This document shows positions 53,004 through 63,492 of a stretch of DNA of 64,000 bases, piece after piece; position 1 is the first letter of the stretch; the number at the start of each line of letters is the position of its first letter. The stretch is taken from NCBI RefSeq assembly GCF_910596095.1, contig NC_056550.1, positions 29,569,151-29,633,150 of the forward strand, read 5' to 3'. Below the pieces are notes generated by a model, which made no database searches, had not been told where the DNA came from, and saw only the letters and a program-made list of their open reading frames with translations. The stretch comes from Thunnus maccoyii (Eukaryota; Chordata; Actinopteri; Scombriformes; Scombridae). Made by a program: the position numbers and the translations under genes.

Positions 53004-54169
53004 TCACAGTTCAGACTCGTTTGCCTTCTCCTCTTCATCATCTTTTTCTTTATCTTTCTCCTTTGCGTCTTTTGTCATCGGCTTCGCAGTGAAATACACG
53101 GTGTAATGATCTGATATCCTGTCGTCCCGGACAAAGAGACGAGAGATTCCAACATCCCTGGTGATGACCAGATCCAGAGTGTGACCTTTGTCTGTTTTCT
53201 CCTTCACATGCTGAACAAGATGATTCTTTCCCAAAAGCTGTTGAAACTCAGCAGTTGAGGACATCTCATTATTATCAACCCATATATTGAAGTCGCCAGT
53301 CACGATGATGCTGTTGTAATCTTCAGAAACTTCATCCAAGAGCTTTTGAAACTCATCCAGGAATCAGTGGAACTGGGTCAAGTTTTTCAAGTCAGTCGGT
53401 GGGCGATACACATTGATGAGCAGGACAGGTTGGTCCCACTTATCATGTTGCAGAACTGCGGCGACATATTCAAAGGTTTCTGGGGCTTTTTTTGTTAGTT
53501 TTATTTTTCCACCCTGTAACACCTGTGAATACTGAATCGCTACCCCTCCCCCTCGAGATTTCCTCACCTGCTTGACATTGAAAGTGTCTCGAGTTGGCCT
53601 CACCTGATGAAAGGAACTGAAATTTTCCGGTGAAGCCGCCCCGAGAACTTTACGTCCACCTTTCCTTTTTAACCATGTCTCAGTTGGGAGAAAGACGTCC
53701 AGGTTGTTTTTTGTTATGAGCTCTTTGATTTCTGCTGCTTTTTATTCAGTGAATGAACATTGAGCAGCCCCATCCTTATTGATCCAGGAGGTCTTTGGTT
53801 GGTCTCAAACTTGTGATTGTTTTCCTCGTTAAGGCTTCTGTCGCTTTTCTGTTTTTGATCAACACGGCTTTCTTGACTGCTTGTTTTACCTCTCGGCTTG
53901 CTTTCATCTTCCTCCGTCTCTTCCTCTTCACTATCACTCTCTTCATCTTCCTGATCGCTCTCTTCCTCTTCACTATCACTCTCTTCATCTTCCTGATCGC
54001 CTCTTCCTTGTTCTCCACTTCCCGTCTGTTCATTTTGGTCACTTCCTCTTCCTCGCTCCCATCCGCTCGACTCAGTTTGATCGCCTTCTCGTTCGTCCTC
54101 ATGATCGCTGTCCTCTCTGAAAAGCTTTTCTTCCTGCTCTTGTTGACGTTTGGCCATCTCATCAGACAT
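53004..54169 (-). pseudogene. LINE-type endonuclease ORF with acidic N-terminus, broken
   Basis: Minus-strand reading starts MSDEMAKRQQEQEEKLFRED, continues through a long acidic region with repeated DQEDEESDSEEEE, then enters an endonuclease/exonuclease/phosphatase fold: LLNVHSLNKK, TETWL, VYRPPTD, VTGDFNIWVD, HTLDLVIT and ISDHYTVYF, i.e. the Asn, Glu, Tyr/Arg, Asp-x-Asn and SDH residues of apurinic-type nucleases. Two breaks are visible: a frameshift near 53715 just after SLNKK, and an in-frame TGA at about 53361-53363. The frame then stops after an acidic tail ending EEEKANESEL, with no reverse transcriptase following. An acceptor-like TTGTTATTCACAG precedes the ATG. Either a decayed LINE fragment or a decayed domesticated nuclease gene. 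Confidence 0.7.
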
Positions 54170-54199
54170 CCTCCTGTGAATAACAACAGTGAAGGCATT

Positions 54200-55380
54200 G
54201 TTAGCAAGAGATTTACCTATAAACTATCATCAGGTCATAATTTAATATGTCAGAATTTTCTTCTTTCTAAGTTTAGATGTTTAGCTTCTTCTCCATAATG
54301 CAACACCATCAGGGAGGCGTCTGATCATCTGCAGCAACCAGAAGAACAAGGAGTCCTGCAACAGATGGTCTCTGATCTCAACATCATGGAGTCAGTCTGG
54401 GATTGACATGAAGAGACAGAAGCAGCTGTTTGTGGGTGATTCTTACAGTTTAGTGAGGACTAGAACTGCTTTTCCGCTGCATGGTACGGCTTGACTTGAC
54501 TCGCCTCTTTTGGTTTTCCAAAAGGCAAAAGTTCTGAATAGTATCTGTCACCTGGTGATGTGAAAACACTGCAGACCACTGATTGGTCAGAGAGAATCAT
54601 CACACACGAGACATCCTGCAGTGGAAAATGAGTGAATGAAAAGGAGAAATACAGATGAGGAAATTTAAACTTTACTAGTGTCTGTTTCCACAGTAAATCA
54701 TCTGTTGCGTGTTTGATGTTTATTTATTTGTACTTTATCATGTAACTGCCATGAAAAAACCTGACAATGACATTTTATTATTCACTGCTTTGGTCTCTCA
54801 CTCGTGTTCTCCCTCTCTTTTTTCTCTTCTTTTTAAAAATGAGTCGGGAAGCCGACAATAAAGCCTAACTTTACTTTTAATGTTATCAAATGGAGAGAAA
54901 TGCCTAAACTGGTCCTATATCGATACTAGAGTACTTTCTTATTTTATGAATGAAGCTGAACACAAGTTCAGTCATCCAGGCTTGGAGGCTTTATTAATTA
55001 CCTGTTAAAAATTGTAATCAGTAACCTAATGCAAGTATCGCAATACTTTCCTGCTGTCAGCCTCAAACACTACTCAAAAACACCAACTTCCTCTCTGGGC
55101 TCAGTGGCGACTTTAATGTTCAGCCTGTCAGTTACATAATGATTCAGTTTCACTTTCATTTCTCCTCTTCAGCCTTCTCTCTCTCATCATGTTGTCATGT
55201 TGTTTTTGGTTCTGACATGTTTATATGACAAACACATCACCTGAAAAAAACCCTGAGCTGACCAGTTTAGGAATGAGCTAAAATTTATTTAACATGCATT
55301 ATGGTCAGCTATGCCGTGGTTAATACGACTATCACCATAAACCCCAGCGCCCCACCCAGTCTGGATCCACAAGACCAGTC
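54200..55380. other. intergenic, no gene
   Basis: No coding exon recognised; mixed AT-rich DNA with MITE-like phrases but no definable ends. Confidence 0.4.
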
Positions 55381-56634: not shown

Positions 56635-58482
56635 TATTGGTTAAGTTTAGGGAAAGATCATGGTTTGGGTGAAAAGATCACTAATGTTACGTTTCTTTTA
56701 CTTTATCATGTGTTTAGGATTTGTATGAAATGATGCATTTCTTCTGATTACAGACAGAAATCAGGAGTTTGATGATTGAAAGTAATTCCTGCTGGTTTGA
56801 TGAGCGACTCCACACAAACGCTGTCACATCCAGACTGAAGCTACGTTCATGTTGTGTTTTAAGGTTCTCTGTCTCTGGTTCAATGGAAATGTCTTCATTT
56901 CAGGAATCAGATGGAGGATTCATCTATAGGATCTATAGATATTTCTTTACAGATGTTGTGTGAAAGTGTTTAAAAAGTAAAATCCAGCTTCTTTATTTCT
57001 GTTTTCAACCAAGTGACTTGTTGCAGAAAAGACATTTGTGAGCTGCTGAACATGCTGTTCGCCCGCTCAGTGAATCAGGTGATTTACAGGAACTCACAAA
57101 CACTTTATGACAATACAAAGATCTGCTGGGATTTTTATTATGACCTGATTAGGAAATGTTATCAGATGCTTTTAGAAAGTAAAGCTTGTTCAACAAGGTG
57201 TGTCTGTTTTATTATCAGTGATACTTCATCATACCTGTTAACACATAAGTGACTCTCAGGTGAGACTGTCTTCATCAGTCGTCTGTTCAAACACTTAAAC
57301 ATGACTTTATGTTAATGTTTCTTTATGTTTCTCTTTTCTTCAGGAAAGATGCTGGTTTTCTGTTCAATATTGAACAAGTAAACATGTTTTTCAATGTACA
57401 TATCAAGATATGATCAGTATCAACATTTTACAACATTAATAATGTTTCCTCAATATGTTGATAACAAAGGTTGCATAAATTTAAGGTAGAAACCGCGTTT
57501 TTAACCATGTTTCAAGTGATCATTTTAACTGAAATCATGATCTCTCCCTAATCCTAACCAAGTGGTTTTTGTGCCTAAATCTAACCGGACCAAATGTGAC
57601 AAATTCGACATGACGGGTTGGTGGGTGTATCACACTAAACCTATTGGTTAAGTTTAGGGAAAGATCATGGTTTGGGTGAAAAGATCACTAATGTTACGTT
57701 TCTTTTACTTTATCATGTGTTTAGGATTTGTATGAAATGATGCATTTCTTCTGATTACAGACAGAAATCAGGAGTTTGATGATTGAAAGTAATTCCTGCT
57801 GGTTTGATGAGCGACTCCACACAAACGCTGTCACATCCAGACTGAAGCTACGTTCATGTTGTGTTTTAAGGTTCTCTGTCTCTGGTTCAATGGAAATGTC
57901 TTCATTTCAGGAATCAGATGGAGGATTCATCTATAGGATCTATAGATATTTCTTTACAGATGTTGTGTGAAAGTGTTTAAAAAGTAAAATCCAGCTTCTT
58001 TATTTCTGTTTTCAACCAAGTGACTTGTTGCAGAAAAGACATTTGTGAGCTGCTGAACATGCTGTTCGCCCGCTCAGTGAATCAGGTGATTTACAGGAAC
58101 TCACAAACACTTTATGACAATACAAAGATCTGCTGGGATTTTTATTATGACCTGATTAGGAAATGTTATCAGATGCTTTTAGAAAGTAAAGCTTGTTCAA
58201 CAAGGTGTGTCTGTTTTATTATCAGTGATACTTCATCATACCTGTTAACACATAAGTGACTCTCAGGTGAGACTGTCTTCATCAGTCGTCTGTTCAAACA
58301 CTTAAACATGACTTTATGTTAATGTTTCTTTATGTTTCTTTATGTTTCTCTTTTCTTCAGGAAAGATGCTGGTTTTCTGTTCAATATTGAACAAGTCAAC
58401 ATGTTTTTCAATGTACGTATCAAGATATGTTCAGTATCAACATTTTACAACATTAATAATGTTTCCTCAATATGTTGATAAC
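56456..58482. repeat. 1007-bp direct tandem duplication
   Basis: Copy 1 (56456-57462) and copy 2 (57463-58482) are nearly identical; I noted only a handful of substitutions (for example CAAACTCGAC versus CAAATTCGAC) and a 10-bp expansion of TTTATGTTTC in copy 2. AACAAA is present at both edges and at the junction. Each copy holds two short ORFs of 64 and 79 codons with no recognisable domain. Confidence 0.95.
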
Positions 58483-59174: not shown

Positions 59175-59391
59175 GGGGAATCCCAGGGTTTACCAGAATA
59201 CCAGCAGCACTTTCTCTTTCACTTGGTGACTTTCACAGGTGCTTTACCTGTGTAGCACCTGACTCTGATCAGCCAATAAGAAAACAGGATTCTTTTGTCT
59301 CCTCCCCTTCTTCCAGCACATAACATCTAATTGTTGAGTCACACGTTATTATTTTCAGAGAACTAACCTGTGATGCTCCAAAGCAGGTAAG
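59175..59391 (+). promoter_or_regulatory. candidate inducible promoter and first exon for the ApoL-like gene
   Basis: GGGGAATCCC at 59175-59184 is a consensus NF-kB decamer. TTTCTCTTTC at 59211-59220 is the complement of GAAAGAGAAA, an ISRE core, within AGTGAAAGAGAAAGTG on the minus strand. CCAAT lies at about 59272. A possible first exon ends CCAAAGCAG|GTAAGA at about 59392. The next acceptor on this strand in suitable context is CTTCTTTCAG at 61328, just before the ApoL ATG. Linking the two is inference. Confidence 0.45.
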
Positions 59392-61303: not shown

Positions 61304-61383
61304 CATCCTCCAACTTTCTTCTTTCAGCTTCCTGTTGATCACACTGCTGAGGTTTTCTGCTCTCTGGTTGGAGGACCTCCATC

Positions 61384-63492
61384 ATGGCCACCGCTGACCA
61401 GCTGCTGGAGCTGATTTTCTCCTGGATCGAGCAGAGGGAGCGCTGTGCAGAGAAGCTACGGAAACTGGCCAGAGAGCTGGAGTCACTCAGGAAGAAATGT
61501 AACGGCAGTGAATGTATTGGCAGTTCAGTGTCAGTGGCGGGAGCTGCATGTCTGATCGGGGCCGGCGTGGCCACTTTGTTCACCGGCGGAGCTGCGGCTC
61601 CAGCTTTAGGTTTGTTAGGAGTAGTGTCTTCTGGTGTCGGTCTCACCGTCTCTCTGGCTACTAAACTCACTGAGCACCTTATATCCAGCGACACCATGAA
61701 AGATGCGCAGAAGATAGAACAGAAGAGCAACGACATTGGAGAAACAATCCAGCGACTGTTGAAGAAACTGAAGGCGGAGAAGAAGGGAGTGAACTCCTTC
61801 GCAGACCCAGATGAACTGGACCGACATGTCATGACTGAAATTCTGGGAGCCATGGCGAGAAGAAGTGGACTGAAGTGGCCAATCAACATCAGCTCATTTG
61901 GAGATGGTTGGGGGGGGGCGAGAGGGTTTACTGGCCTGGATTCACCACAGCTCAACCCAAACTTAATCATGCCTGAAGTCATGACTGCAGTCGCCGGTGT
62001 TTTAATATGTTTCTCATTTCAAGCTGAAGGGAAAGCATCCAAACTTTTGTTTGCTAAAGGAGCTGAACAACTCATCAAAACAGTGACATCGGCTGGATTT
62101 AAAACATTTGTTAAAGGAGGCGGCATGGTAAGATTATTTAACTATACACATATGACACAGACAATCACACATAATTATCCTTTATAATAACATGCCAAAA
62201 TGTTGTTATTAATAGATTGATAATTATTGATTTAATGTTTTTACAAAGGATATTTTTGATAAATGCTATGTGCATTTGCTTTGTCTGATAATACTGAAAA
62301 TGAATGTATTGATCTCTTCCCATTGACCATCAGGCTGTGGGAGGAGCTGTTGGAATGGCGTTTGCACTTTCAGAGGCGATTGACAACTGGAAAGACCTGA
62401 TCGAGAAGAATCATGTGACTGAGGCGAGCCAATCACTGAGAAACACAGCTGATGCAATCTTAAAGGTCACCCGGACACTGAGGAAACAGCTTGACGACAT
62501 CAAGTAAAAGAAAAAGATGTCATTAAGTGTTTCTTTTTTCTGAAAATCTGAAACATGTTAAAGTTTTCTGTCCATATTCACATATTCTGTTATTGAACTA
62601 AACAGAAATATCTGAACATTAATTTAGTTTTAGAATTGATTACTAATTTTTCAATATTTTTCCCAATTCCTCCTACAGAAAGGCGTTTCAGAGGTTTCAG
62701 AGAAAGACACTGATTGAATTTGCGATAGAAAACTGTGAGGATGAAGCTGTTCGGAGATGGCTGAGAGTAAATTCAGAGTCTGACGCTTTCTCCCAACTGG
62801 TGGACATGTTTCATTTCCTGAAGAAACACATCGATGAGGAAGAAAAGAAGGATCACAGTAACAATGTTCACATCACGTTTGATGCACACGGATGCATCGG
62901 AGACTCGATGATCCCGGCCAGCCGTCTGCTGCCTCTGCCCTCCATCACAGACGTGATCCTGTATTCTCCCTGGAACTGTTCCATCACTGCTGATGTAGCG
63001 TACGGTGTCGCTACAGGACGCATGAAGCTTCAACACAGAGTGTTTTACTGTAGGAAAAAAGATGGCTGTCAAATTCCTGATGAAAAGCATCGACCCTCCA
63101 AACTGCCCGACCACTGGAACTCAATGAAGAAAGCTGGAGACCAAAAGATTCCCAACATCACCGTCAGCCCTATGAAACCACCAGAGGACGGTACATGGAA
63201 AAAGTTTGAGTCTCTCAAAAAAAAGTATGGTCCACCAGGAAGAAACCACATCGTCATCCCGTTCATCCTCCCAGCAGAGAGCAGCTCTTTAGAAAGAGTC
63301 CCATTCTTCATCGTCACTCTGGCTCTGTCTCTGGTTCTCCTCTCCTCCAGATTTAAAGCCACCGTCCATCTCACAGCCTGTCTGAGTGACAGATCTGCAG
63401 AGAGGAAGTTTGACCAGGAGTATCTGAAGCAGCAGTACGCCTGCACCATCAACAACACTTTAATGACATGTTCACCAGACATGTTTGTGTGA
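61384..63492 (+). CDS. apolipoprotein-L-like protein with an unusual C-terminal region
   Basis: Exons 61384-62127, 62334-62503, 62679-63492 join in phase to 1728 nt, 575 aa. Residues 1-45 form an amphipathic coiled coil. Residues 49-90 (VAGAACLIGAGVATLFTGGA and onward to TVSLATKL) are the Gly/Ala-rich hydrophobic hairpin of apolipoprotein L family proteins, which insert into membranes. Another hydrophobic stretch lies at 200-213, and 249-304 (AVGGAVGMAFALSEAIDNWK, then a helical end) complete the ApoL-like part. Residues 305-575 are a region I do not recognise: helical start, then VHITFDAHG (His375), 30 residues later VILYSPWNC (Cys405) and TADVAYGVATG, and a strand-rich end (IVIPFILPA, VPFFIVTLALSLVLL). 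No signal peptide is seen, as in intracellular human APOL2-6. The ATG follows CCATC and an acceptor 55 bases upstream. Human APOL genes are interferon-inducible; role here probably immune but unproven. Confidence 0.85.

Follow-up and report, generated by a model that had tools for sequence, protein, structure and literature searches.

The Gene and Its Two Halves

The window analysed here is a 64 kb stretch of DNA, C18:29569151-29633150, in the assembly of 782 Mb that was searched. It carries a gene with three coding exons (61384-62127, 62334-62503 and 62679-63492) that have GT/AG borders, share one reading frame and together encode a protein of 575 amino acids. An earlier, sequence-only reading of this DNA had proposed that the third exon joins in phase to an ApoL-like module, and the gene model bears this out. 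The ApoL-like module and a separate C-terminal domain are spliced in frame, and His-Gly (HG) follows a hydrophobic strand in all five copies of the domain, namely that of the window and those of its paralogues L017, L018, L019 and L020. The residues singled out by that reading, His375-Gly376 and Cys405, were found in the translation at the numbers it had given.

Exon 3 consists of 270 open codons. Of 20,000 sequences generated by a first-order Markov model of this exon, none stayed open, and its GC content is 47% compared with 25-26% in both introns; from this openness and this contrast we conclude that exon 3 is coding. Of the four types of poly-A signal sought, ATTAAA was found after the exon-3 stop and none in intron 2. 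An in-frame TAA lies right behind the exon-2 donor, and retention of the intron would thus give a plain ApoL form. The coordinates of the features are collected in Table 1.

Table 1. Features of the window gene and its upstream region. Positions are those of the window.
Feature	Position	Strand	Basis or remark
ISRE-like site, one mismatch to RNGAAANNGAAACT	59209..59222	-	Upstream of the probable untranslated first exon
Probable untranslated first exon	59350..59386 (start approximate)	+	Donor GTAAGA at 59387; the exon end and this donor are also conserved in front of L017 and L018
ApoL-like exon	61328..62127	+	Coding from ATG 61384; sub-threshold Pfam ApoL match; hydrophobic windows
Second coding exon, ApoL C-terminal helical part	62334..62503	+	Gene model
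Exon 3, C-terminal domain, residues 305-575 and stop	62679..63492	+	Gene model, paralogues, openness
Putative Stv-like core, residues 370-540	62872..63384	+	By analogy with the L019 match; window copy itself without a match
His375-Gly376	62887..62892	+	5/5 copies; His encoded by CAT in L018 and by CAC in the other four
Cys405, nucleophile proposed earlier	62977..62979	+	5/5 copies; inside base-identical codons
Possible metal site, His424-x4-Cys429-x5-Cys435-x6-His442	63034..63090	+	All four residues invariant, 5/5 copies
Cys539, end of the last hydrophobic strand	63379..63381	+	4/4 copies reaching that point; would correspond to PF21527 position 119, judging from L019

In Pfam, the family that the first half of the protein matched best was ApoL (PF05461, residues 19-131, 20.4 bits, E 0.0004). 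As this score falls below the family cut-off of 25.9 bits, the label ApoL-like is based on a sub-threshold match. The other weak Pfam lines of the full protein, several coiled-coil or helical families with E values of 0.05-0.9, were set aside. Three hydrophobic windows in the first exon (residues 49-67, 73-91 and 193-211; mean hydropathy 1.87, 1.65 and 1.65) mark segments of the ApoL half that are predicted to be able to enter a membrane. The sub-threshold match, these segments and an interferon-type promoter site liken the protein to the apolipoprotein L family, represented in humans by APOL1-6, whereas the additional C-terminal domain of 270 residues sets it apart. Our literature search, which included the accessible parts of PMC12248677 and PMC8316464, found no ApoL protein fused to such a domain. 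According to PMC12248677, APOL1 and APOL3 of humans are genes stimulated by interferon, and PMC8358165 describes APOL1 as a former of cation channels.

Paralogues of the Exon-3 Domain on C18

When the genome was searched with the exon-3 domain, six matching places came up, every one of them on C18. They correspond to the five copies and a fragment, L021; like all copy counts from these genome searches, this number is a lower bound. The identity to the window domain was 96% for L017, 75% for L018, 66% for L019 and 82% for L020 (up to query residue 204). The use of L019 and L018 as queries added only weak and seemingly unrelated places, on C1, C3, C4, C8, C13, C19 and C23; the places L042, L043, L049 and L051-L053 elsewhere in the genome were inspected and judged to be noise. 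The fragment L021 (L021:1507-1926) lies about 1.2 kb downstream of the stop of the window gene, corresponds to the last ~140 residues of the domain with 94-96% identity and is a partial tandem duplicate.

In all five longer copies, an exon resembling ApoL exon 2 precedes the domain on the same strand. Places resembling the ApoL first exon were found at eight loci (nine matches, two of which are one locus), and these are also all on C18. L019 has its donor, acceptor and phase in common with the window gene, and the G-run in its first exon is one base shorter than that of the window. In L017 and L018, no ApoL first-exon match was found between the promoter-like first exon and the domain. There, an open reading frame starts at an ATG in the exon-2-like exon and continues, across a GT/AG intron, into the domain, which gives short forms of 311 and 319 residues, respectively. 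L020 is truncated, and its second exon, read by eye, is out of frame. A further ApoL copy, C18:29098131-29099246, has a first exon with 95% identity and is followed by no domain exon until that of L018, ~12 kb further.

The dN/dS values of the domain in the ten pairs of copies ranged from 0.27 to 1.04, which indicates that the domain is changing fast or is weakly constrained. Such values do not exclude decay and to that extent speak against the reading that we prefer below. They also enter into a different explanation, according to which there is no working fusion at all: the plain ApoL protein would stop at the TAA directly past the exon-2 donor, and exon 3 would be a separate or dying gene. 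The ApoL copy without a domain exon of its own, the truncation of L020, the shortened G-run of L019, the fragment L021 and the pairs with dN/dS near 1 all agree with this. Nevertheless, exon 3 is open over its 270 codons and in phase, its GT/AG junction is common to L019, and the poly-A signals sought are absent from intron 2, while ATTAAA stands behind the exon-3 stop. For these reasons, we regard the absence of a working fusion as unlikely.

The Upstream Region

The alignment identified three promoters, that of the window gene included, and an ISRE-like site was present in each of them. The GAAANNGAAA site of L018 is part of its aligned promoter, and that of L017 stands between two pieces of promoter that align. 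In the whole 64 kb, there are 10 ISRE-like sites of the kind listed in Table 1 compared with 4.4 expected. The core pattern TTTCNNTTTC is itself over-represented in the window (15 against 4.3 expected), which weakens the argument from these sites. An interferon-type site upstream of the window gene is supported by these observations but not proven.

Several other elements were noted in the window. An exact ISRE consensus, ATGAAAGTGAAACT, is present on the minus strand at 55146-55159, some 4 kb further upstream than the ApoL promoter, and is assigned to no gene. Between 56452 and 57758, a 300-base stretch is repeated 1007 bases apart with 99% identity, and a 160-base repeat with 97% identity occurs nearby, at 57312 and 58329; these repeats upstream of the gene reflect a recent duplication of ~1 kb. 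Reverse-strand frames at 53004-54223 resemble, by eye, a fragment of a retroelement endonuclease. Frame fragments between 11500 and 25000 resemble PSMD3 (~12.7 kb) and a G-CSF-like protein (~24.6 kb), also by eye, and this region would then be the known PSMD3-CSF3 neighbourhood.

Conserved Residues of the Exon-3 Domain

The residues conserved among the copies do not all carry the same weight. Codons 388-405 (62926-62979 in the window, with the corresponding codons of L017-L020) show no base difference among the five copies, whose domains otherwise differ by up to a third of their residues. Since Cys405 is the last residue of this block, its retention says nothing about selection on the protein. 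The identity of the block may be due either to gene conversion or to strong constraint at the DNA level.

The loop between Cys429 and Cys435 varies from 4 to 13 residues across the five copies. As His424, Cys429, Cys435 and His442 are invariant in spite of this, the HCCH motif suggests a metal site, and the domain may accordingly bind a metal, to judge from the motif.

Two other types of enzyme were considered and rejected. A metallophosphatase (DxHG) was discarded on account of residue 373, which is Asp in the window copy and Val in L018 and L019, and permuted papain-type folds, LRAT and PPPDE among them, were discarded on account of the short His-Cys spacing.

Comparison with Clan CD Peptidases

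The sequence-only reading had tentatively assigned the exon-3 domain to the clan CD peptidases, with His375 and Cys405 as a dyad of the caspase or CHAT type that would couple a membrane effector to a protease. The resemblance to this clan (caspases C14, CHAT) is that His-Gly closes a hydrophobic strand and that a Cys follows a second such strand. Both the HG and Cys405 are present in all five copies, and the spacing of 30 residues between His and Cys lies inside the range known for clan CD. In contrast to members of the clan, the exon-3 domain gave no profile match. Clan CD models were absent from all lines listed at E values up to 10, whether in the Pfam and NCBIfam results of the scanned copies or in the PADLOC results of the window copy; the reach of these listings is limited by the HMMER filters, which remove most matches above an E of ~0.1.

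The profile of the five copies was compared with fish caspases, bacterial CHAT and bacterial C14, and 52, 50 and 38 of 200 column shuffles, respectively, scored equally well, which places these scores at the level of noise. The top alignments of both caspase comparisons set HG on HG, which adds nothing to the score. The power of the comparison was moderate in the controls: the 95% shuffle level was exceeded by all four single C14 sequences on the CHAT profile, by six of 11 single CHAT sequences on the C14 profile, and by none of three single fish caspases on CHAT and two of the three on C14.

The arrangement of HG and Cys was also tested as a pattern on shuffles of the window domain, with a hydrophobic stretch before the HG and, 20-50 residues on, a second one before the C. 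A loose version occurred in 930 of 20,000 shuffles and in all five copies. A stricter version occurred in 140 of 20,000 shuffles and in two copies, L018 and L019, the window copy failing it. As a pattern, HG...C is weak.

The sequence context of the HG was scored with a small caspase HMM against a background of HG windows from E. coli (28 given, 25 scored). L019 reached 7.1 bits and L018 2.2 bits, compared with at most 1.0 in the background, and these two scores are a hint in favour of the earlier peptidase call. The window copy, at -1.1, ranked behind nine of the 25 backgrounds, L017 behind nine and L020 behind eight; true CHAT windows scored from -2.2 to 4.1 on the same model. With the CHAT HMM, the window copy scored 0.1 and ranked behind two of 19 backgrounds, and the other copies behind two to five. 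With no family model listed and with profile scores that amount to noise, the clan CD assignment was not supported.

Likeness to the Bacterial Stv Domain

The Pfam search with the four paralogues gave a different lead. The Stv family (PF21527), which Pfam describes as a 'putative adhesin Stv domain', was the sole family matched by three of them (L018, E 0.010; L019, E 0.011; L020, E 0.0056); L017 had no match in Pfam. All these scores are below the PF21527 cut-off of 24.2 bits, the best fish score being 18.2. The window copy gave no Stv match in repeated Pfam scans. Its domain gave a 19-residue piece of CurL-like_PKS_C (E 0.03-0.11) and, once, RhiE-like_linker (E 0.32), and these lines were set aside. 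Rescanning of the same copies as fragments and as a consensus gave Stv matches with E values of 0.0044-0.0054, which are not independent tests, and the window copy was again without a match. None of the ten shuffled or reversed controls matched any Pfam family. The search of the genome with PF21527 gave no match, although such a miss does not show absence. Our literature search on Stv found nothing relevant.

The matches of L018 and L020 cover model positions 2 to 77-78, and that of L019 (residues 61-229) covers positions 2-119. For comparison we used a true Stv member, L082 from Paraburkholderia sp. PGU19, which scored 35-37 bits and was the one member found in the 22 plasmid records searched. 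Its match covers positions 2-120, starting with LMLWGHG and ending with WCACT; the L019 match starts with IIFVAHG and ends with ATVHLAAC. By the ungapped end points of the two matches, the HG and the Cys of the last strand of L019, the one fish copy that allows this comparison, occupy the same model positions as those of L082. The terminal Cys of L019 corresponds to Cys539 of the window protein and not to Cys405. Compared directly with L082, the fish copies gave scores no better than noise: 111 of 500 shuffles were as good as the window copy and 146 of 300 as good as the five-copy profile.

The likeness to Stv thus lies in the HG strand and the terminal Cys, which stand at the ends of the match in L019 as in bacterial L082. 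The fish copies differ in being longer, with insertions, in lying behind ApoL exons and in having the HCCH motif, which was not seen in L082. Because the L018 and L020 matches end at positions 77-78 and the direct comparison with L082 was no better than shuffles, we name the domain Stv-like and not Stv. Its distant relationship to the bacterial Stv domain is supported by the profile matches but falls short of proof.

The comparison with L082 also bears on the peptidase question. The only Cys residues in the matched stretch of L082 are the two of the terminal WCAC, and there is accordingly no Cys near the place of Cys405. Given this, the base-identical block that accounts for the retention of Cys405, the lack of family models, the noise-level profile scores, the frequency of the HG...C pattern in shuffles and the rank of the window copy on the caspase HMM, we consider the His375/Cys405 dyad very improbable, the scores of L019 and L018 on that HMM notwithstanding.

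The peptidase idea persists mainly as a pairing of His375 with Cys539, to which we likewise assign a low probability. The exon-3 domain and Stv would then both be hidden clan-CD-like His-Cys enzymes with a long insert between the two strands. It is consistent with this that the HG strand and the Cys of the last strand bound the PF21527 match in both L019 and L082 and that the best alignment of the window copy to the CHAT profile sets the Cys539 strand on the Cys strand of CHAT. The latter alignment is at noise level (14.7, compared with a shuffle median of 13.7 and a 95% level of 18.5), and the five-copy profile aligned elsewhere on CHAT.

Alternatively, the domain may have no catalytic role and may be a metal-stabilised binding domain, in which the HCCH residues hold the fold and a ligand of the pathogen or the host is bound. 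The invariance of these four residues around a loop of variable length, the fast change elsewhere in the domain and the description of Stv as a putative adhesin favour such a role. On the other hand, the binding of a metal is guessed from the motif, and the bacterial Stv stretch, having Cys at its end only, contains no matching HCCH. We hold this tentative alternative to be possible but less probable than the reading given below.

Searches for Further Relatives

No relatives of the domain were found in the phages, plasmids and bacterial and archaeal genomes searched or in viral contigs, where the five-copy alignment was also tried. In PHROGs, the window copy gave weak unnamed families only, and sequence searches of the PDB with the domain brought up nothing of use. 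L019 as a query against plasmids matched six records with E values of 1-7. Three of the six were inspected: stretches of the Rhizobium 11515TR and AB2/73 plasmids were rejected as they look like unrelated reading frames, and a match in an R. leguminosarum plasmid was rejected on account of a stop inside it. L082 as the query matched no plasmid sequence other than itself and gave no match in phages or viral contigs.

Discussion

Little is understood of how APOL proteins, which are immune effectors, are controlled. The window gene is best described as an ApoL variant of local occurrence that changes fast and carries an Stv-like domain at its C-terminus, and it is probably a fish immune gene. The reading we prefer, with a probability of roughly 0.55, is that it encodes an intracellular, interferon-driven ApoL-like effector whose Stv-like domain steers or gates the ApoL half. 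In the mechanism we propose, interferon would turn the gene on, and the ApoL half (residues 1-305) would insert into a membrane or permeabilise it. The exon-3 half (residues 306-575) would be a compact alpha/beta domain, distant kin of Stv, that steers or gates the ApoL half, and its working residues would probably be His375 and Cys539, together with the HCCH metal site, rather than Cys405. L017 and L018, which have the domain without the ApoL first exon, may act as partners or regulators.

A more far-reaching version of this mechanism, which we think improbable, is that a Stv domain of the bacterial type was acquired or kept by a vertebrate lineage and spliced to an interferon-driven ApoL protein, that this domain is an unrecognised His-Cys enzyme (His375/Cys539) arming the effector, and that the paralogues carrying the domain on its own regulate it.

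An ApoL form with a second domain that stands beside short copies without the first exon offers a natural experiment on how such an effector may be steered. If the link to Stv is true, there would be an animal counterpart to a little-studied bacterial domain and, with it, a set of candidate working residues.
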